From the IMG/VR virus record IMGVR_UViG_3300033143_005935, positions 1 to 29,416 of that record: a stretch of DNA of 29,416 nucleotides; one strand, given 5' to 3'. This document shows positions 1 through 27,067 of the stretch, in pieces. Below the pieces are notes generated by a model. The model was not told the origin of the DNA. It did not search any database and worked only from the letters and a program-made list of their open reading frames with translations. The translations under genes were made by a program, and so were the position numbers. This stretch comes from a virus. Numbering within the stretch: the first letter of the stretch is position 1; every line of letters starts with the position of its first letter.

Positions 1-690
1 AATCGAATGAGTGTAGATGATATTAGTGATTTAGAAATGTTACGAGATGATATGATTCTTGGTACCAGAGTACCAAAAGGTTATTTAATTGTTGACCGTG
101 CTTCTTTTGGAACAAGTGGGCAAGCGTTATTGCAGCAATTTAAACCATTTGGACGAGCAGTTTTTGGAATTCAAACTTGTATTTTAGAGGAGTTAACTCA
201 ACTAGTAAGACTTCATTTTATAATGACAAATACTTTTGTGGATGAACCATTTGAGCTGAGTATGACTTTTCCCGTTATTGAAGAATCAAGTGACCGTTTA
301 CGAATGAAAAGTGATACAATTAGACTTGCGAATGATATTATAACAAATATTCAAAGTGCTCTTGGTTTGGGGCGAGGTGAAGCTTTACCACCAAATGTTG
401 TAAAAGATATTTTTTCAAAACTTTCATTTTTAAATTCAGAGGATATTAATAAGTGGATTGATGAAATAAAACCTCCAGAAATATCAGAGAATCAGAAAAA
501 ATATATTCAGGAAAAAGTTAAACGTATAAATTTAACTATGATTATGGAAGCATATTTTCTATCTAAAGAATTACAAAAATTTGAAGAAGGTATTATAAAT
601 AATCGTCATTTTTATTCTTCTTCTAAAATAACAAATCAACAAAAAATTATATTGGATTTAATGAAAACTAATAATAAGTTGAATGAATAA
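1..690 (+). CDS. Portal protein, C-terminal part (T4 gp20-like), cut by window edge
   Basis: The reading frame is open to the first base of the window, so this is the 3' end of a longer gene; the ATG at 7 is probably internal. The segment D-I-S-D-L-E-M-L-R-D-D-M followed by R-V-P-K-G-Y-L resembles the part of gp20-type portals where a helix precedes the conserved V-P-x-x-x-L stretch. A long polar, helix-rich tail follows, as in portal C-termini. Portals form the dodecameric ring at the head vertex through which DNA enters and leaves. The protease/scaffold and capsid genes downstream fit the order gp20-21-22-23 of T4. The call rests on motif recall plus gene order. Confidence 0.8.
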   Translation, partial: NRMSVDDISDLEMLRDDMILGTRVPKGYLIVDRASFGTSGQALLQQFKPFGRAVFGIQTCILEELTQLVRLHFIMTNTFVDEPFELSMTFPVIEESSDRLRMKSDTIRLANDIITNIQSALGLGRGEALPPNVVKDIFSKLSFLNSEDINKWIDEIKPPEISENQKKYIQEKVKRINLTMIMEAYFLSKELQKFEEGIINNRHFYSSSKITNQQKIILDLMKTNNKLNE

Positions 691-740
691 TTTTTTACAC
701 TATTTTAAATTACCTACTAATATGGTAGGAGGGTAGTATT

Positions 741-1478
741 ATGAAGAAAAAATTTTTAATTTGGTTTTTAAGTGCTTTATTGTTTTTCTCTGCCACAATA
801 TTAATAGCAGGAAATGGTTATCTTGAACATAAAGTTTTACCGTCAACAGTTGCTATTACCACAGAATTTGCTCTTGGTGCAGGATGTATTGCTACTGAAG
901 ATGGGTATATTATTACTAATAAACATGTTGTGGTTGGAGCGGACACAATTTATGTGTGGTTACATGATTTTACAAGGTATAAAGCTCGATTAGTTGGTTT
1001 TCATTCTGAAACGGATATTGCTGTTTTAAAAATTGAACCAATTGACCCATTAGTACCATTTACAAAAGGAAATATCGCAAATACAAATCAAATTTTTATT
1101 GGTGATACAGTGTATGCTATTGGACATCCATTTGGATTTGTATGGTCTATAACAAAAGGTATTATTAGCCAAAGATTGCAGGATAAGAATGGTATACGCT
1201 ATTGGCAGATTGATGCTTCGATTAATCCTGGTAATTCGGGCGGACCATTAGTAGATGAGTATGGTAGATTAATTGGTATTAATACTCTTGGATTTCCACC
1301 AGCTTTTGTAGAAAATATTGCACTTGCTATTTCTGTTCAATCTTTCATTGAAGAAGTTGAAATGCTTATTGCTGCTGATATGAAACGAGTAAAACCAATC
1401 GAAAATGTTCGTGAATATGATCAAGAAAATAACGCAATTCCAGAAAGTTCAATTAGTTATTTTGATTTTTACTACTAA
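741..1478 (+). CDS. Secreted HtrA/DegP-like trypsin-fold serine protease without PDZ domain
   Basis: This 245-residue protein has a Sec-type signal or anchor (M-K-K-K then a hydrophobic run, residues 5-23). A chymotrypsin-fold protease domain follows with all three catalytic residues in canonical contexts: His62 in T-N-K-H-V-V, Asp92 in E-T-D-I-A-V-L-K-I, and Ser166 in N-P-G-N-S-G-G-P-L. The domain ends near residue 210 and the last 35 residues are polar, so the PDZ domains usual in host DegP/HtrA are absent. A strong ribosome site (AGGAGGG at 727-733) precedes the ATG, and a terminator follows immediately. The signal peptide predicts export to the host envelope, so it is unlikely to be the prohead protease, which is encoded separately at 2505. 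Possible roles are envelope proteolysis, superinfection control or lysis; the role is not known. Confidence 0.88.
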   Translation: MKKKFLIWFLSALLFFSATILIAGNGYLEHKVLPSTVAITTEFALGAGCIATEDGYIITNKHVVVGADTIYVWLHDFTRYKARLVGFHSETDIAVLKIEPIDPLVPFTKGNIANTNQIFIGDTVYAIGHPFGFVWSITKGIISQRLQDKNGIRYWQIDASINPGNSGGPLVDEYGRLIGINTLGFPPAFVENIALAISVQSFIEEVEMLIAADMKRVKPIENVREYDQENNAIPESSISYFDFYY

Positions 1479-1521
1479 AACCATATATGATTTCCAATAG
1501 GAGTCATATATGGTTTTTTTT
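1477..1521 (+). terminator. Rho-independent terminator after the HtrA-like gene
   Basis: A 13-bp perfect stem (1478-1490 with 1504-1516) encloses a 13-base loop and runs into eight consecutive T at 1514-1521. It overlaps the stop codon of the protease gene. Confidence 0.85.
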
Positions 1522-1546: not shown

Positions 1547-2488
1547 TTGTATAGCTTAGAGGAAAAAGAAAAAAAATTAAAAGAAGAAATTATTTCCGAT
1601 GAATTAGAAAGCATAATTGATAGAAATGGTTTATTAAATGTTCTTGGAACAATTGAAGAAATTTGTTATCTAAAAGCAGACCATTTAAGAACAAATTGGC
1701 AAGACGAAGTATCCGCGAAAGCATGGGAAAATGATGGGAAATTAATTAGTAAAATTTTAAATAGAATTATTAATGAAGAAATTTCTAATAAAAAAGAAAA
1801 AACTCAAGAATTTGGTGTTAAGGATGGTTCTGAAAGGGGAAAGAAAAAGGGTGGTTTAAGACGGAATCAAACACCAGATTGTAGACATCCAGAACTTAAA
1901 AATAAAAAAGAAGAGCAAAATCGAAATAATAAAATTCAAATTAAAGAAGATGTTCGAGTAGGTAATTATATTATTGAGACTGGAGAACAAGTTAAAATTA
2001 TTGAGCCATATACTCTTCAAGATTTTGCTAATGTAATTAATTATCCAGCTAATACAGAATCTGAAATTGTAGATGTTATTATTCAAATGGCTTCATCTTG
2101 GACTTTAGGAAATATTGTTGTAGATTTTTCTGAGGTTTCACACCATATAACTAGTAAAATTTGGGATAAACTAAAAATGCAAGTTGGAAATAAATTTCTT
2201 AAAGAATTAGAAAGATATCTTGATAAACGTTTTGATAAAAATCCAAATATTATAAAAGAAATAAGAGGAGTATCCACACATTTAGAAAAAGAACTTCGAA
2301 AGTTATTTAAACCTTTTGGTTTAAAAGTAAATTGGACACCTGATAGTATTGAAATTGTAATGCCTAATGAAGATTGGTATTGGAATGAACTTTCTGCTTC
2401 TGGAAAATTAGAAGAGTTCAATGAACTTATTCAAGAGTTTGGCGTAGATTATGATATTGTTGATAATGTAATTGTTATTTTTATTTAA
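1547..2488 (+). CDS. Unknown phage protein, 313 aa, with central basic linker
   Basis: I do not recognise a function. The start is TTG at 1547, chosen because GGGAG at 1536-1540 sits six bases upstream and no ATG offers a better site. Three parts are visible. Residues 1-80 are helical and contain A-D-H-L-R-T-N-W-Q-D-E with A-K-A-W shortly after, a motif I have seen in unassigned phage proteins. Residues 85-130 are a basic, low-complexity linker with G-L-R-R-N and C-R-H-P. Residues 135-313 form a mixed alpha/beta domain rich in Trp and acidic residues. It lies between a terminator and the protease/scaffold gene, so a head-assembly role is possible but unproven. Confidence 0.75.
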   Translation: MYSLEEKEKKLKEEIISDELESIIDRNGLLNVLGTIEEICYLKADHLRTNWQDEVSAKAWENDGKLISKILNRIINEEISNKKEKTQEFGVKDGSERGKKKGGLRRNQTPDCRHPELKNKKEEQNRNNKIQIKEDVRVGNYIIETGEQVKIIEPYTLQDFANVINYPANTESEIVDVIIQMASSWTLGNIVVDFSEVSHHITSKIWDKLKMQVGNKFLKELERYLDKRFDKNPNIIKEIRGVSTHLEKELRKLFKPFGLKVNWTPDSIEIVMPNEDWYWNELSASGKLEEFNELIQEFGVDYDIVDNVIVIFI

Positions 2489-2504: not shown

Positions 2505-4244
2505 ATGGATAACACAATATTAGAAAAACGAGAAGATGGAAAATATAAACTTATTGAAAATATACTTGTAAAACCATCTCAAGTGGAGAAGCTAGATAAA
2601 TTAGTTGAAAAAGTAAATAAAATATTATATGAAGGAAAAGAAATTGAGTGTATAGGAGTTTATACTTTTCCAGTTTCAAAACCGGGAATTAAAAATTTAA
2701 ATGAAAGAATTTACCCAAAAAAACTTTGGGAAAACGTAATTCAAAAAGGTTACGGTGAAGGTTCTTATGGATTAATGGGACATCCTGAAGATGATGGTAA
2801 TCCAAAAGATGCTTGGTGTGTTTGGAGAAATTTAAGATTCAACGAATCACAGGATTTAGTTGTTGTAGATGCTTATTTATTTGGTCCATATGGGAAATTT
2901 GTTGAGGATGCTATGAAAGCAGGTGGAAATGTAGGACTTTCTACAGTAGGATATGGAGATTTTAAAGATGATGGCATTACTATTGAAGAGTCATCTTATG
3001 AACTAGCACGTGTTGCTGATTTTGTACTAGACCCATCAGCAGGTGTGTTTGGAAGTTTTGAGGATAAAGTAGTAAATGAGCAAAAAGAAAACTCAGAAAA
3101 ACAACTTTTAATTAAAAATCCTACTAATATAAATAGTAACAATACCAATATTAAGACTTATTTTAAGGAAGAAAATACAATGAGTGAAAAATCTCAAAAG
3201 TTAATTGAAAAGAACTTTAGATTATATGTCGAAAATAGATTTAAAGAAATTCAAAAATTAAATTCTATTAAAGAAAAATATCAGAGTTATCAGGAACTTC
3301 TTGAAAATTTTGATGATGATATAACATTTGCTGATGATTTAAAAGCAAAAATTGTTGAGGCAATGACACCAATTAAAGCTGAACTTGATAAGTTAGTGGA
3401 TAAAGGACAAGAATTTGATACTATGAAGGAATCTAAAGAAGAATTGATTGAAAAGGTTAAAGAACTTGAAGAAAAACTTAAGGATATTACTGAGAAATTT
3501 GAGAAAGAAACAACAGAAAAAGAAGCAGCAATAAAAATTTTAGAAGAATTAAAAGTATATACAAATAAGCTTAGAGATTTATATGAGATTTCTAATGCTG
3601 AAAAAAATGGTATGGTGACTGCGACAGAATATAAGCAATTATCTGTATATACGGAAAAGATTGAAGAAGAATTAAAAAAAATAAAAGATAATCATACTAA
3701 AGCAGCTATTCTTGCTAAACAAAAAATAGAAAAAGTAAAAGCAAAAGTAAAGGAAAAAGAAAATAAAAAGACTGTTCAGGAACAAGAAAAGAAAGAGGGT
3801 GAAAAGTGTAAAACTGAGGATGATAAAGAAGGAACTTGGGAGAAAGATGATGATGGAAAATTAGTATGTACAATTAAAAAAGAACAAAAAAAAGAAGAAG
3901 CTATTGAAAAAGAAGTTGAAAAGGAAACTAAAAAAGAAGAAAGCGTTGAAAAGGAAACTAAAAAAGAAGAAAATATCACTCAGGATTTTACTTTGAACTT
4001 AAGAAATGATGAAGAAGTTCAAGCATATTATAATGATTTGTTAATTGCAGATTCAAGGGTAGAAAAGATTAGAGAAGATATTTTAAAGTGTAAGACTTTG
4101 ATGGAAGCACAAACTACATATTTACGGTTAAAACATTTGTATGAAGAAAATGAATCTGTATATGATAGAAGTATTAAAGAAGATATCCAACCTACAATAC
4201 GAACTATTCAAATTGATAATATAAGACGAAAAGATTGGATATAA
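2505..4244 (+). CDS. Prohead maturation protease fused to scaffold (gp21-like protease, S80 type)
   Basis: The start is ATG at 2505, seven bases after GAGAGG at 2494-2499; the in-frame upstream TTG has no such site. The product has 579 residues. Residues 45-190 match the T4 gp21/S80 prohead protease pattern: N-L-N-E-R-I-Y-P at 64-71, the histidine motif G-L-M-G-H-P-E-D (His93) and the serine motif G-N-V-G-L-S-T (Ser146), followed by D-F-V-L-D-P-S. From about residue 200 the protein becomes a long charged coiled coil, broken by a Cys-pair segment (K-C-K-T-E-D to L-V-C-T) and a short tandem repeat, and ends in a compact helical domain. The C-terminal half is scaffold-like. This protease should cut capsid and core proteins after Glu during head maturation. 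Confidence 0.88.
   Translation: MDNTILEKREDGKYKLIENILVKPSQVEKLDKLVEKVNKILYEGKEIECIGVYTFPVSKPGIKNLNERIYPKKLWENVIQKGYGEGSYGLMGHPEDDGNPKDAWCVWRNLRFNESQDLVVVDAYLFGPYGKFVEDAMKAGGNVGLSTVGYGDFKDDGITIEESSYELARVADFVLDPSAGVFGSFEDKVVNEQKENSEKQLLIKNPTNINSNNTNIKTYFKEENTMSEKSQKLIEKNFRLYVENRFKEIQKLNSIKEKYQSYQELLENFDDDITFADDLKAKIVEAMTPIKAELDKLVDKGQEFDTMKESKEELIEKVKELEEKLKDITEKFEKETTEKEAAIKILEELKVYTNKLRDLYEISNAEKNGMVTATEYKQLSVYTEKIEEELKKIKDNHTKAAILAKQKIEKVKAKVKEKENKKTVQEQEKKEGEKCKTEDDKEGTWEKDDDGKLVCTIKKEQKKEEAIEKEVEKETKKEESVEKETKKEENITQDFTLNLRNDEEVQAYYNDLLIADSRVEKIREDILKCKTLMEAQTTYLRLKHLYEENESVYDRSIKEDIQPTIRTIQIDNIRRKDWI
3180..4244 (+). CDS. Probable scaffold protein from internal in-frame start
   Basis: An in-frame ATG at codon 226 of the protease gene has its own Shine-Dalgarno-like AAGGA at 3165-3169, ten bases upstream. 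It falls exactly between the catalytic domain and the coiled-coil half. The region just before it (residues 200-225) is Asn-rich and looks like an inter-domain linker. Initiation here would give a 354-residue, almost wholly helical, Lys/Glu-rich protein, as expected of a scaffold. Lambda C/Nu3 is the known precedent for a protease gene with a nested scaffold. The start is inferred from sequence only. Confidence 0.6.
   Translation: MSEKSQKLIEKNFRLYVENRFKEIQKLNSIKEKYQSYQELLENFDDDITFADDLKAKIVEAMTPIKAELDKLVDKGQEFDTMKESKEELIEKVKELEEKLKDITEKFEKETTEKEAAIKILEELKVYTNKLRDLYEISNAEKNGMVTATEYKQLSVYTEKIEEELKKIKDNHTKAAILAKQKIEKVKAKVKEKENKKTVQEQEKKEGEKCKTEDDKEGTWEKDDDGKLVCTIKKEQKKEEAIEKEVEKETKKEESVEKETKKEENITQDFTLNLRNDEEVQAYYNDLLIADSRVEKIREDILKCKTLMEAQTTYLRLKHLYEENESVYDRSIKEDIQPTIRTIQIDNIRRKDWI
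3915..3972 (+). repeat. 30-bp tandem repeat in the scaffold coding region
   Basis: Two copies of a 28-base identical unit occur at 3915-3942 and 3945-3972 with a 30-base period. They encode two copies of V-E-K-E-T-K-K-E-E-[SN]. The unit lies in the charged linker of the scaffold half and probably arose by slippage. Confidence 0.85.
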
Positions 4245-4563: not shown

Positions 4564-4576
4564 TATATAAAACTTT

Positions 4577-4614
4577 AACCAAGAAAGGTAATAATGTTAT
4601 TACTTTTCTTGGTT
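4577..4614 (+). terminator. Long 18-bp hairpin before the capsid gene, terminator or processing site
   Basis: Bases 4577-4594 pair with 4597-4614 over 18 positions with one G-T wobble and a minimal loop. It lacks a proper T-tract (ATTTAT follows), so it may be a weak terminator, an RNase III-type processing site or a stabiliser of the RNA 3' end. The intergenic stretch 4564-4752 holds this hairpin and a promoter candidate, and no gene. Confidence 0.55.
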
Positions 4615-4669
4615 ATTTATACTAATCTATAAATGAGAAGTATATTACTTGGTAACTAAATTTACCTAC

Positions 4670-4752: not shown

Positions 4753-6192
4753 ATGCGTACAGCAATGCATGAACAACAAAAAATTATTGAATCAAAAAAG
4801 CGGCTGTCCGAAAGAAATCAAAAAGCAGAAGAACTTATTGAAGAATGGTCAAAAAAGCCTAATATTGGTGAAAACCTTATTGAGGCTTATGATAAGAATC
4901 CTGCTGCTGTTCGTAATCTTGCATTTGTTCTTAAAAATCAAGAAAAACATTTACAAAGTCTTACTGAAACCCAAATTTCAAATGCTTTTTCTACAACTCC
5001 AGAAAATGTAATGCGAATTGTTCGATTAGGTTATCCTAATTCAGTTCGTGGTGAAATTTTCCTTGAATGGGGAATGGAAACAGCAAGAGATAGTATCTAC
5101 TATCTAGCACCAATTTATGCAGCATCTAAACGAGGTTCAACTGCTGATGCAGTAACTCATGAATCTACAGCATATCGTTATGCAACAGAAATTGAGGAAG
5201 AAAGCATTGGTACTGGTGATGATACTACTTTAGTATTTACTGGCGATGATAGTGGAAAAGTTTCTAATCCTCCACTTCGACCATATACAGTTAAGATTCT
5301 CGTAGATAATGAGTTTGTAGCTACAGATAATGGTAGTGGTACTCTTACAGGTACTCTTCTTGATTCTTCATCAACAAATACTATCGATTATGATACAGGT
5401 GCTTTAACAGTTACCTTTACGACAGCTCCGACTACAGGCGCTGCTATTGTAGTTCAATACTTTTATGATTCAGAAGATTCAGACCAATATACAGACCTTG
5501 GAGAAGTTGAGCTTCAATTAAGAGATTATCTTTTTAGAGCAAAACCATATCCACTTGGAGTATCTTGGAGTAAAATGACTGAGTTATTGCTTGGAACAAC
5601 ACTTGATATTGATGCAGAAGAAGCATTAATTAGGGGTGTTGCAGATGAACTTAAGAAATCTCTTGATTTCCATGCTTGTCGTTTAGGATATAGACGTGCT
5701 TTAGCTAACAGTACGGTTACTTTTGATGCTGACTTTGCAAGCTCAGGTGCTGATTCAGAAATGGCTCACGCACAAAGTATTACTAGAAAAATTGATGATG
5801 CTGGTGATGTAATTTATGCAGCTCTTAATCGTGGAGGTGTTACAAAGATGTATGGTAATGCTGATGCGGTTAACTACTTAAAGTTACATAGCAGATTTAC
5901 TTCAGAAGGACGTCAACCAAAAGTTGGTATTTATAGGGTAGGTAGTCTTGATGGTATGGATATTTACAAAGCTCCAACAGCTATTGTTCCAGCAGGAAAA
6001 ATTGTTTGTGTTTATAGAAATGAACAAGTTCCTGAAGATGTATCGATTGCATTTGGTTCTTTAATTCCTCTGTACCAAACTATGACACTTGAGCACAAAA
6101 ATATGTACAAAGAAACTGGTCTTGCATATTTTGGAGATTATAAAGTACTTCAATCTAACTATTTAGTTCTTTTGAATGTTTCTAATCTTTAA
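4753..6192 (+). CDS. Major capsid protein (T4 gp23-like, HK97 fold) with inserted beta domain
   Basis: The product has 479 residues. Residues 1-72 are a helical, charged N-terminal region typical of a removable delta domain. Then come V-M-R-I-V-R-L-G-Y-P-N and G-E-I-F-L-E-W-G-M, resembling the start of mature gp23 (M-V-R-R-A-I-P-N). A likely prohead-protease cut is after L70-T71-E72. Residues 151-240 look like an inserted beta domain, starting I-G-T-G-D-D-T-T-L and ending with L-T-V-T-F-T-T-A-P, which recurs in the tail sheath. The C-terminal part carries P-L-Y-Q-T-M-T-L-E-H-K-N-M-Y and the closing L-N-V-S-N-L. The gene forms its own unit: leader hairpin and promoter candidate upstream, GGGAG at 4739-4743, terminator downstream. 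This is consistent with very high expression. Confidence 0.88.
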   Translation: MRTAMHEQQKIIESKKRLSERNQKAEELIEEWSKKPNIGENLIEAYDKNPAAVRNLAFVLKNQEKHLQSLTETQISNAFSTTPENVMRIVRLGYPNSVRGEIFLEWGMETARDSIYYLAPIYAASKRGSTADAVTHESTAYRYATEIEEESIGTGDDTTLVFTGDDSGKVSNPPLRPYTVKILVDNEFVATDNGSGTLTGTLLDSSSTNTIDYDTGALTVTFTTAPTTGAAIVVQYFYDSEDSDQYTDLGEVELQLRDYLFRAKPYPLGVSWSKMTELLLGTTLDIDAEEALIRGVADELKKSLDFHACRLGYRRALANSTVTFDADFASSGADSEMAHAQSITRKIDDAGDVIYAALNRGGVTKMYGNADAVNYLKLHSRFTSEGRQPKVGIYRVGSLDGMDIYKAPTAIVPAGKIVCVYRNEQVPEDVSIAFGSLIPLYQTMTLEHKNMYKETGLAYFGDYKVLQSNYLVLLNVSNL

Positions 6193-6219: not shown

Positions 6220-6253
6220 AAAATCCCCTCTTTATTTAGAGGGGATTTTTTTT
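6220..6253 (+). terminator. Rho-independent terminator after the major capsid gene
   Basis: An 11-bp stem (6220-6230 with 6239-6249, core CCCCTC/GAGGGG) has an eight-base loop and a run of eight T ending at 6253. Confidence 0.92.
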
Positions 6254-6264
6254 GATTAAAAAAT

Positions 6265-6293
6265 TTGACAAGTTTTAAAAAATGTATTATATT
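6265..6293 (+). promoter_or_regulatory. Sigma70-type promoter for the homing endonuclease
   Basis: TTGACA at 6265-6270, a 17-base spacer and TATATT at 6288-6293. The predicted transcription start is near 6300, at or next to the ATG at 6301, so the message may be leaderless. Confidence 0.7.
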
Positions 6294-6300
6294 AAATATT

Positions 6301-7869
6301 ATGAATGATAAATTAAAAAAAGAAATTGAAAAATATCTTTTAAGAAAAGATGGGATTCTAATAAGAAAATGGTCAGTGGCAAAAAATAAAGATATTAAAA
6401 ATATAATTCAAAAAGTTATTAATACTACTCAATTTTTGGATGATAATACAGAATTTCGTGCTCGAATTTATGCTATTTTAAATGATATTACTGTGAAACC
6501 TACTTGTAAGTATAGTAAATGCAATAATCAGACCAAATACTTTAATAGACAAAGGGGATTTTTAAAATATTGTAGTTTAGAATGTCGAAAAAAAGCTAAT
6601 GCTTTTTCAACAAACAGGGGGAGAAAATTTAATGATGATTTTAAGAAAAAAATTAGTAATAGTATAAAAAAACGAGGTGGACATTTTGGAAAAAATAATC
6701 CAAATTATGGAAATAAACATTCAGAAAAAACTAAAAAATTATTCAGTGAGCAAAGAAAAGGTAAAAAACAAACTAAAGAGCATATTGTAAAACGAATAGC
6801 AACTATAGAAAAAAATTTTTATATAAGAATATTAAAATCTTCTAAATTTAATAAAATTATAAAACCCCTTTTTACGTTAGATGAGTATAATGGAATTACA
6901 AAAGAATATTCTTGGAAATGTTTAAAGTGTGGTTATACTTTTAAAGATACAATTAAATCACCCCATTTACCAAGATGTCCTAAATGTTTTCCTATAAAAA
7001 GTTCTATTGCAGAAAATTTATTAGCAGATTGGATTGAAAATTTAAATGTTGTTGTTAAAAGACGAAGTAAAATTATTTATCCATATGAAGTAGATATTTA
7101 TTTACCAGAATATAATTTAGCAATTGAGTACGACAGTTTATATTGGCACTGTGAAAGAAATGAAAACATTGATAAAAATTATCATATTCATAAAACAGAA
7201 TTATGTCAATCCAAAGGAATTCAATTATTACATATTTTTGATAATGAATGGGCTGAAAACACTGAAATTATAAAATCGATTATTTTGAATAAACTAAAAA
7301 AAACAAGTAATAAGATTTATGCACGAAATACTATAGTAAAAGAAATTTCAAATTCTTTATATAGACAATTTACTGAAGTTAATCATTTACAAGGATATAC
7401 TCCAGCTAATATTAAATTAGGATTATTTTATAATAATATACTAGTTCAGATACTTACATTTGCTATACCACGATTTAATTATCAATATGATTATGAAGTT
7501 ATAAGATTTGCCACTTTAATAAATAATTCTGTTATTGGGGGTTTTTCAAAATTATTTTCATATTTTAAAAAACATTACGAATTTAAATCTATTATAACCT
7601 ATGCTGATAGACGTTATAGTACTGGTGATGTGTATATTAAAAATGGATTTCAATTTATTACTTTTAGTAAACCAAATTATTATTATACAAAAGATTATAA
7701 AACTTTAGAAAACAGATTAAATTATCAAAAACATAAATTAAAGGATAAATTAAAAACTTTTGATTCTACGTTAACTGAATGGGAAAATATGCAGTTAAAT
7801 GGATATGACAGAATTTGGGATTGTGGAAATTTAGTTTTTACTTATGAAAATTTTAAAAAATCACTCTAA
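6301..7869 (+). CDS. Free-standing homing endonuclease with NUMOD3 motif and Vsr-like (EDxHD-type) nuclease domain
   Basis: The ATG at 6301 is preferred over an upstream TTG that overlaps the -35 box. The protein has 522 residues. Residues 69-95 hold a Cys4 zinc site (C69, C74, C91, C95). Residues 127-160 carry NUMOD3-type repeats (N-Y-G-N-K-H-S-E-K-T-K-K). A second zinc ribbon is C207/C210/C226/C229. The nuclease core follows: S-I-A-E-N-L-L (E238), Y-E-V-D-I-Y-L-P (D265), A-I-E-Y-D-S-L-Y-W-H (E276, H283), Y-H-I-H-K-T and L-L-H-I-F-D-N-E-W (D314). This order matches the Vsr-related EDxHD homing endonucleases. The C-terminal 170 residues, ending with Y-D-R-I-W-D-C-G-N, form a domain often seen after such nucleases. 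It sits between the capsid terminator and structural genes, a typical invasion site beside a conserved gene. Confidence 0.88.
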   Translation: MNDKLKKEIEKYLLRKDGILIRKWSVAKNKDIKNIIQKVINTTQFLDDNTEFRARIYAILNDITVKPTCKYSKCNNQTKYFNRQRGFLKYCSLECRKKANAFSTNRGRKFNDDFKKKISNSIKKRGGHFGKNNPNYGNKHSEKTKKLFSEQRKGKKQTKEHIVKRIATIEKNFYIRILKSSKFNKIIKPLFTLDEYNGITKEYSWKCLKCGYTFKDTIKSPHLPRCPKCFPIKSSIAENLLADWIENLNVVVKRRSKIIYPYEVDIYLPEYNLAIEYDSLYWHCERNENIDKNYHIHKTELCQSKGIQLLHIFDNEWAENTEIIKSIILNKLKKTSNKIYARNTIVKEISNSLYRQFTEVNHLQGYTPANIKLGLFYNNILVQILTFAIPRFNYQYDYEVIRFATLINNSVIGGFSKLFSYFKKHYEFKSIITYADRRYSTGDVYIKNGFQFITFSKPNYYYTKDYKTLENRLNYQKHKLKDKLKTFDSTLTEWENMQLNGYDRIWDCGNLVFTYENFKKSL

Positions 7870-14361: not shown

Positions 14362-14391
14362 AAAGACCACTTCAAATAGTGGTCTTTTTTT
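14362..14391 (+). terminator. Rho-independent terminator
   Basis: A ten-base stem (14362-14371 with 14378-14387, core GACCACT/AGTGGTC) with a six-base loop and seven T at 14385-14391 closes the cassette at 11805-14330. Confidence 0.92.
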
Positions 14392-22226: not shown

Positions 22227-22261
22227 TTTTTCAAATACTAATAATAATGGGAGTGGTAATC

Positions 22262-22555
22262 ATGAAAATTTTTGAAAAGGCCAAAAATATTTTGAGTAAA
22301 ATATTTGGAGCTACGACTATCTTAACGATTTTATCTTTTATTGTTATTCTGATTATTAAATTAATACGTGGAAAGAATACTGAAGATTTTTCTGATGTTG
22401 ATAATTTCCTTGATACAATAAATGAAAGAATCATTAATCTTAAGACTGAAAAAGAAAGAATTCAGAAAGAAAAAGAAAGAATAAAAGATTTTCGTAATAA
22501 TCTAGAAATAAATAAAGCAACTCGTGAAAAAGTTGTTAAGAAGTACATTAAATAA
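22262..22555 (+). CDS. Single-pass membrane protein with coiled coil, possible i-spanin
   Basis: ATG at 22262 follows GGGAG (22249-22253) by eight bases. The 97-residue product has a short basic N-terminus (M-K-I-F-E-K-A-K), one membrane segment at about 18-35 (I-L-T-I-L-S-F-I-V-I-L-I-I), then Lys/Glu heptads (K-T-E-K-E-R-I-Q-K-E-K-E-R-I) to the end. One anchor plus a periplasmic coiled coil is the shape of Rz-type i-spanins, and a secreted protein follows 19 bases later. No sequence family is recognised and lysis function is inference. Confidence 0.62.
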   Translation: MKIFEKAKNILSKIFGATTILTILSFIVILIIKLIRGKNTEDFSDVDNFLDTINERIINLKTEKERIQKEKERIKDFRNNLEINKATREKVVKKYIK

Positions 22556-22574
22556 CTAAAATGGGGGATTTATA

Positions 22575-23078
22575 ATGAAAAAATTATTAATTTTTACAAT
22601 ATGTTTTTTTATGTTATTTGGAATTTTTACAACAACTACTCTTGCAAAAACAATTAAAATTCAAACTCCAAATGGAGAGGAAAAAGAACTATATATTCCA
22701 GATAATTATAATGATTTAAAAGAAGCATATATTGAAATGGCGAAATTATATCTTAGCGCTGAATATGATGTGGACCAAAGTCTAGAAAAGATTGATATGC
22801 TTTTAAAGATGTTAGACCAAATGGGTATTTTGTTTGATATGTCTCAAGAAACAAATAAAGAATTAAGTGCAAAATTACAAGAAGTTATAAAAAGAAAACA
22901 AAGAGAAAATTTATTTCAAGGTTATTGTGTAGCTTTTTATCAAAAAAGCCCATTAGGTCAGGATAGTAATTCACTTCTGGGTGTTGGTATTCAGCTTGTT
23001 ATTAAAGAACAAGCTTTGATAGGCGTTAATTTCTCTTTTGATATAATTCAATTATCATTGGGATGGAAAATATTTTGA
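22575..23078 (+). CDS. Secreted protein with helical and C-terminal beta region, possible spanin partner
   Basis: The protein has a clear signal peptide (M-K-K-L-L-I-F then a hydrophobic run, likely cut after T-L-A at 22-24). It has no lipobox Cys, so it is not a classical Rz1 lipoprotein. Residues 35-115 are helical (L-K-E-A-Y-I-E-M-A-K-L-Y-L, then a coiled coil with M-L-L-K-M-L). The last 45 residues are alternating strands ending in L-S-L-G-W-K-I-F, like an outer-membrane insertion segment. Pairing with the membrane protein just upstream suggests an envelope-disrupting set. This presumes a two-membrane host, which is not proven. Confidence 0.65.
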   Translation: MKKLLIFTICFFMLFGIFTTTTLAKTIKIQTPNGEEKELYIPDNYNDLKEAYIEMAKLYLSAEYDVDQSLEKIDMLLKMLDQMGILFDMSQETNKELSAKLQEVIKRKQRENLFQGYCVAFYQKSPLGQDSNSLLGVGIQLVIKEQALIGVNFSFDIIQLSLGWKIF

Positions 23079-27029: not shown

Positions 27030-27067
27030 ACCCCTTTTATATTACTAATATATAAGAGGGGTTTTTT
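27030..27067 (+). terminator. Terminator hairpin that also contains the ribosome site of the next gene
   Basis: Bases 27031-27042 pair with 27050-27061 (12 bp, one G-T pair, core CCCC/GGGG) with a seven-base loop and six T at 27062-27067. The 3' arm includes AAGAGGGG (27054-27061), the only good Shine-Dalgarno for the ATG at 27070. The structure can therefore end transcription of the tube operon and mask translation of the next gene. Confidence 0.75.

Follow-up and report, generated by a model that had tools for sequence, protein, structure and literature searches.

DegS, a member of the HtrA proteases, possesses an N-terminal hydrophobic segment. Its PDZ domain was reported to sense unfolded outer-membrane proteins and to trigger RseA cleavage (PMC10202637). 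With respect to phages, a trypsin-like serine protease was noted for the Pootjesviridae phage cluster (PMC10783043), and with the protease of the T4-like Pootjesviridae as query 29 phage records were matched, 24 of them over at least 80% of the query length. In RHph_N34 and AF3 the HtrA gene adjoins the genes for capsid, scaffold, maturation protease and portal and is located on the opposite strand, and in RL2RES it adjoins the capsid gene, also on the opposite strand, with the record ending there. Beyond this family, a PDZ-less protease was found upstream of terminase and portal genes (L027), a longer one near genes matching phage families (L025) and another one beside phage exonucleases (L028), and Vibrio phage LP.1 encodes a distant HtrA-like protease. 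Phages with such proteases are already in print and in PHROGs, and the gene described here is one more case. As to the function of phage HtrAs, no functional study was found in the literature searched on that question, and phage genes acting in the host periplasm are in general poorly understood.

The gene resides in a viral DNA stretch of 29,416 nucleotides (IMG/VR record IMGVR_UViG_3300033143_005935), which is referred to as the window. As phages with such genes are already known, the window gene is most likely an accessory one, with a product that acts in the host envelope and not in the shell, and its assignment to the class of exported accessory HtrAs is made with high confidence.

The protease gene and its product

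The open reading frame at positions 741-1478 is complete, i.e., it starts with ATG, ends with TAA (1476-1478) and is preceded by a ribosome-binding site (Table 1). Its product matches Pfam Trypsin_2 (4.7e-28), the NCBIfam Do-family model TIGR02037 (4.8e-47) and PDB HtrA sequences (down to 1e-32), and the His-Asp-Ser triad, the trypsin fold and the GNSGGP motif of an S1C/HtrA catalytic domain were all identified, whereby the triad residues are conserved in the HtrA alignment. The predicted model (mean pLDDT 83) comprises a helix (residues 2-24), the double-barrel domain, a second helix (199-215) and a disordered tail, with residues past ~228 being of low confidence. Foldseek gave DegS without PDZ as best matches (~40% identity), and in VIA-align the catalytic domains of AlgW, DegS and DegP were tied with a Z of ~28. 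Judged from these matches and the model, the product is an S1C (HtrA/Deg) serine protease which is predicted to be catalytically competent. Within PHROGs, phrog_11383 (3.3e-49) and phrog_9683, the latter named protease (6.8e-18), match the protein. No PDZ model of Pfam was matched, the barrel being followed by just the helix and the tail, and the cut-offs of the full-length Do/DegS families were missed (160.9 versus 416.2 and 126.7 versus 422.95 bits). After loop L2 the protease reads ENIALAIS, where most aligned HtrAs read GIGFAIP or similar, so that its specificity or activation may differ.

Table 1. Features in and around the protease gene (window coordinates)
Feature	Position	Strand	Basis or remark
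Portal protein gene, C-terminal part, cut by window start	1-690	+	matches end of 591-aa portal of L002
Ribosome-binding site GGAGGG	728-733	+	7 nt 5′ of ATG; identical in L002
PDZ-less HtrA-like (S1C) serine protease gene, 245 aa	741-1478	+	sequence, profile and structure matches
N-terminal export signal or membrane anchor (putative), residues 1-24	741-812	+	hydrophobicity peak 2.38; model helix 2-24
Double-barrel trypsin-fold protease domain, ~residues 36-200	846-1340	+	Pfam match 46-180, predicted model, structure matches
Triad codons H62, D92, S166	924-926, 1014-1016, 1236-1238	+	
C-terminal tail replacing PDZ domains, disordered from ~228	1386-1475	+	L002 comparison, predicted model
Intrinsic terminator hairpin, 18-pair stem, then T run	1477-1517	+	fold z = -7.5; stem kept in L002
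Downstream neighbor, ORF without assigned function	1547-2488	+	similar ORF directly 3′ of portal gene in L005
gp21-like prohead protease, probably fused to coiled-coil scaffold	2508-4244	+	hhalign, weak PDB match
Major capsid protein	4753-6192	+	PHROGs 138 (major head protein) and 1014

The N-terminus of the protease is among the three most hydrophobic of the 46 ORFs of the window, but it exceeds shuffled sequence to a moderate degree only, its hydrophobicity peak being reached by 59 of 2000 shuffles. Besides the HtrA of the near-identical contig L002, six further HtrAs from phages or viral contigs were inspected, and the N-termini of all six are hydrophobic, whereby the segment of Vibrio phage LP.1 resembles a lipoprotein signal. 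The protease is thus exported-looking and probably exported. The sequence-only reading had described a complete, signal-bearing trypsin-fold protease devoid of PDZ domains, a description which agrees with these findings.

Envelope export would be the right place for superinfection exclusion, where the protease would cut either an envelope receptor or the machinery which incoming phages use for entry, and a precedent is given by T4 Spackle, a periplasmic exclusion protein which inhibits the tail lysozyme (PMC7677548). A patchy accessory distribution, as described below, would fit this function, too. However, the place of the gene among head genes suggests late expression, past the time at which exclusion would be of greatest use, and no exclusion-named family was matched in the Pfam, PHROGs and NCBIfam scans; exclusion is considered unlikely.

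Gene neighborhood and distribution among relatives

Upstream of the protease gene the end of the portal gene is found, the identity of which is based on its conserved place in the family and on the profile, with no PHROGs match. The location between portal and prohead protease, as proposed from sequence alone, holds true, but the two protease genes are not immediate neighbors as the 1547-2488 gene intervenes. Relative to the 427-aa version of L002, this intervening ORF carries two in-frame deletions, which are either real or an assembly effect. The subsequent ORF (2508-4244) matches annotated head maturation proteases (hhalign, 93.5% probability, E 2.4e-7) and, weakly, the PDB prohead core protein protease (E 0.29), and by these matches its product is the phage's own head-maturation protease. 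Directly 3′ of the capsid gene a homing endonuclease gene (6265-7869) is located, which is present in L002 and L004 as well.

Eleven loci, L002 among them, were scanned with profiles of portal, prohead protease, capsid and HtrA. In L002 the protease gene was identified at the same place with 94% protein identity, but it is missing in all seven more distant relatives which cover the portal/prohead-protease junction (L005, L006, L012, L013, L119, L122 and L123), each of which possesses the prohead protease gene. Excluded from this count were L120 and L121, whose sequence stops within or at the portal, and L124, which gave no prohead-protease match. HtrA was not found elsewhere on the ten possibly incomplete relative records either (L005, L006, L012, L013 and L119-L124; four of them 90-164 kb), with L002 being found as positive control, and L004, which starts downstream, is likewise without it. 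Consequently, looking for the gene at the same place in relatives, as had been proposed, yielded L002 and none of the others; at one and the same junction HtrA is present in some close relatives and missing from others. On this comparison, the protease gene is most likely an accessory gene of a single small clade within a myovirus lineage, inserted between portal and the head gene that follows.

These data bear on two further functions. An assembly protease, which would act on head or tail proteins either in the cytoplasm or carried in the virion, would be in keeping with a gene inside the head cluster and with the match of the protease to phrog_430, a baseplate-hub PHROG whose C-terminal region is protease-like, and to Atu_ph07. 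Nevertheless, the phage possesses a gp21-like prohead protease in addition, relatives manage without HtrA at the junction and the N-terminus resembles an export signal, so that assembly appears very improbable. For head maturation in particular, a role is very unlikely because of the gp21-like protease and the missing HtrA in seven relatives, which gives a better basis to the conclusion drawn earlier from export and the lack of PDZ domains. The second function, an aid to lysis, would mean that the protease degrades proteins of the envelope or regulators of lysis at a late stage of infection, with which the late-looking position and export would be in keeping. Yet a lysis gene should have been retained by relatives, which the HtrA gene was not, and the spanin-like pair of the window lies 21 kb away; a lysis aid is thus judged to be decidedly unlikely. 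Lysis and exclusion of other phages had both been suggested beforehand, and no pointer towards either was found in sequence or neighborhood.

The first gene of said pair (22247-23078) encodes a protein of 102 aa that possesses a membrane segment at its N-terminus and a coiled coil, and the second gene encodes one of 167 aa whose N-terminus is signal-like and whose C-terminus ends in SLGWKIF. Together they look like a spanin pair, which gives a hint of a Gram-negative host. In five relative records no match to the pair was found, this search being one without positive control.

The terminator of the protease gene was examined by comparison with L002, whose stem shows a C-to-T exchange on one side and a G-to-A exchange opposite to it, a compensatory change by which the stem is preserved. 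In the intergenic sequence of L005 inspection by eye revealed no such hairpin. The protease gene does have a terminator of its own, as had been claimed, but is not unique in the cluster in this respect, since terminator-like hairpins are likewise located 3′ of the 92-aa gene (4576-4615) and of the capsid gene (6220-6249). Further strong terminator-like hairpins are located later in the window (14362-14387 and 27030-27062). The T4-type late promoter TATAAATA was not clearly enriched (16 found, a number reached in 10 of 100 shuffles) and none was located just upstream of the protease gene; matches to sigma-70-like promoters were no commoner than in shuffles.

Selection and origin

Between window and L002 a dN/dS of 0.24 was obtained for the protease, as compared to 0.04 for the portal C-terminus, 0.11 for the prohead protease and 0.12 for the capsid protein; the protease gene is under purifying selection, weaker than that on the head genes. 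GC3 and codon choice of the gene are within the range of other phage genes, which together with purifying selection points to a resident accessory gene. The protease C-terminus differs from that of L002 through a 62-bp deletion. This alteration and the patchy presence would be compatible with a fortuitous passenger of host origin without selected function, against which the dN/dS, the conserved triad, the compensatory terminator change and the phage-like codon usage argue, leaving a very small probability for this reading.

Phylogeny had been proposed as a means to see whether the gene was captured from a host, but no donor could be traced. A scan of genome contigs with the protease alone yielded nothing, and a scan with alignment A8 yielded common bacterial HtrAs (37-50% over the matched segment). 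No bacterial donor can be named, the window protease residing on a long branch of the tree and its identity to the bacterial HtrAs under comparison not exceeding 46%. The grouping of phage proteases in this tree is not trusted since long branches meet. Many matches from the phages collection were set aside, as those inspected were bacterial contigs under phage names. Bacterial-looking genes surround HtrA in the phage-labelled records MT835515.1 (L015), MT835589.1 (L016), MT835582.1 (L017) and MW462191.1 (L008), and such content calls for caution in similarity-based annotation.

Proposed role and comparison with known systems

Considering the above, an exported accessory HtrA cassette that encodes an unregulated envelope protease is the best explanation overall and is held with moderate confidence. 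The cassette would consist of the protease gene and its terminator, both inserted after the portal gene and ahead of the head gene that comes next. The HtrA protease domain would be exported by the Sec route and would then either be released by cleavage or stay anchored in the inner membrane through its N-terminal helix, in the manner of DegS, to work in the host envelope during infection. Being devoid of PDZ domains, it would lack the peptide sensing that gates DegS and would probably be active in an unregulated manner. Since an unfolded-protein signal should be dispensable for a DegS-like domain that is devoid of PDZ, an unregulated envelope protease is favored. The likeliest role for such an enzyme is envelope quality control or the cleavage of a regulator, by which it would keep the envelope workable or tune the host stress response during phage protein synthesis. 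A role in proteostasis or the stress response, taken by itself, is plausible with chances somewhat below even. With an HtrA catalytic domain that is without its sensing domain, it could readily be tested whether the envelope stress response of the host is managed or misused by phages, and since such genes recur in other phages, this question is a general one. That unrelated tailed phages independently took up exported, often PDZ-less HtrAs, sometimes beside head genes, for a general and so far unrecognized envelope function is a tentative and rather doubtful idea.

Among known systems, the Pootjesviridae protease (Rhizobium phages RL2RES, AF3, RHph_N34 and P10VF) resembles the window protein in being phage-borne, PDZ-less, ~230 aa in length and equipped with a hydrophobic N-terminus, and in three genomes examined it is likewise encoded beside T4-like head genes. 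In contrast, its identity to the window protein amounts to ~29% and its gene is located on the strand opposite the head genes; the tree gives no demonstration of a phage ancestry common to both. The family phrog_11383 is longer than the window protein (462 positions), the proteins of L025 and L028 matching further towards its C-terminal end. From the T4 gp21-type prohead protease the window HtrA differs in being trypsin-like and not gp21-like. With HtrA, DegP, DegQ and DegS (S1C; TIGR02037) it shares the catalytic domain, the triad and the predicted fold, and with DegS in particular a hydrophobic segment at the N-terminus, whereas it is without PDZ, reads differently after loop L2 and stays far below the family cut-offs.
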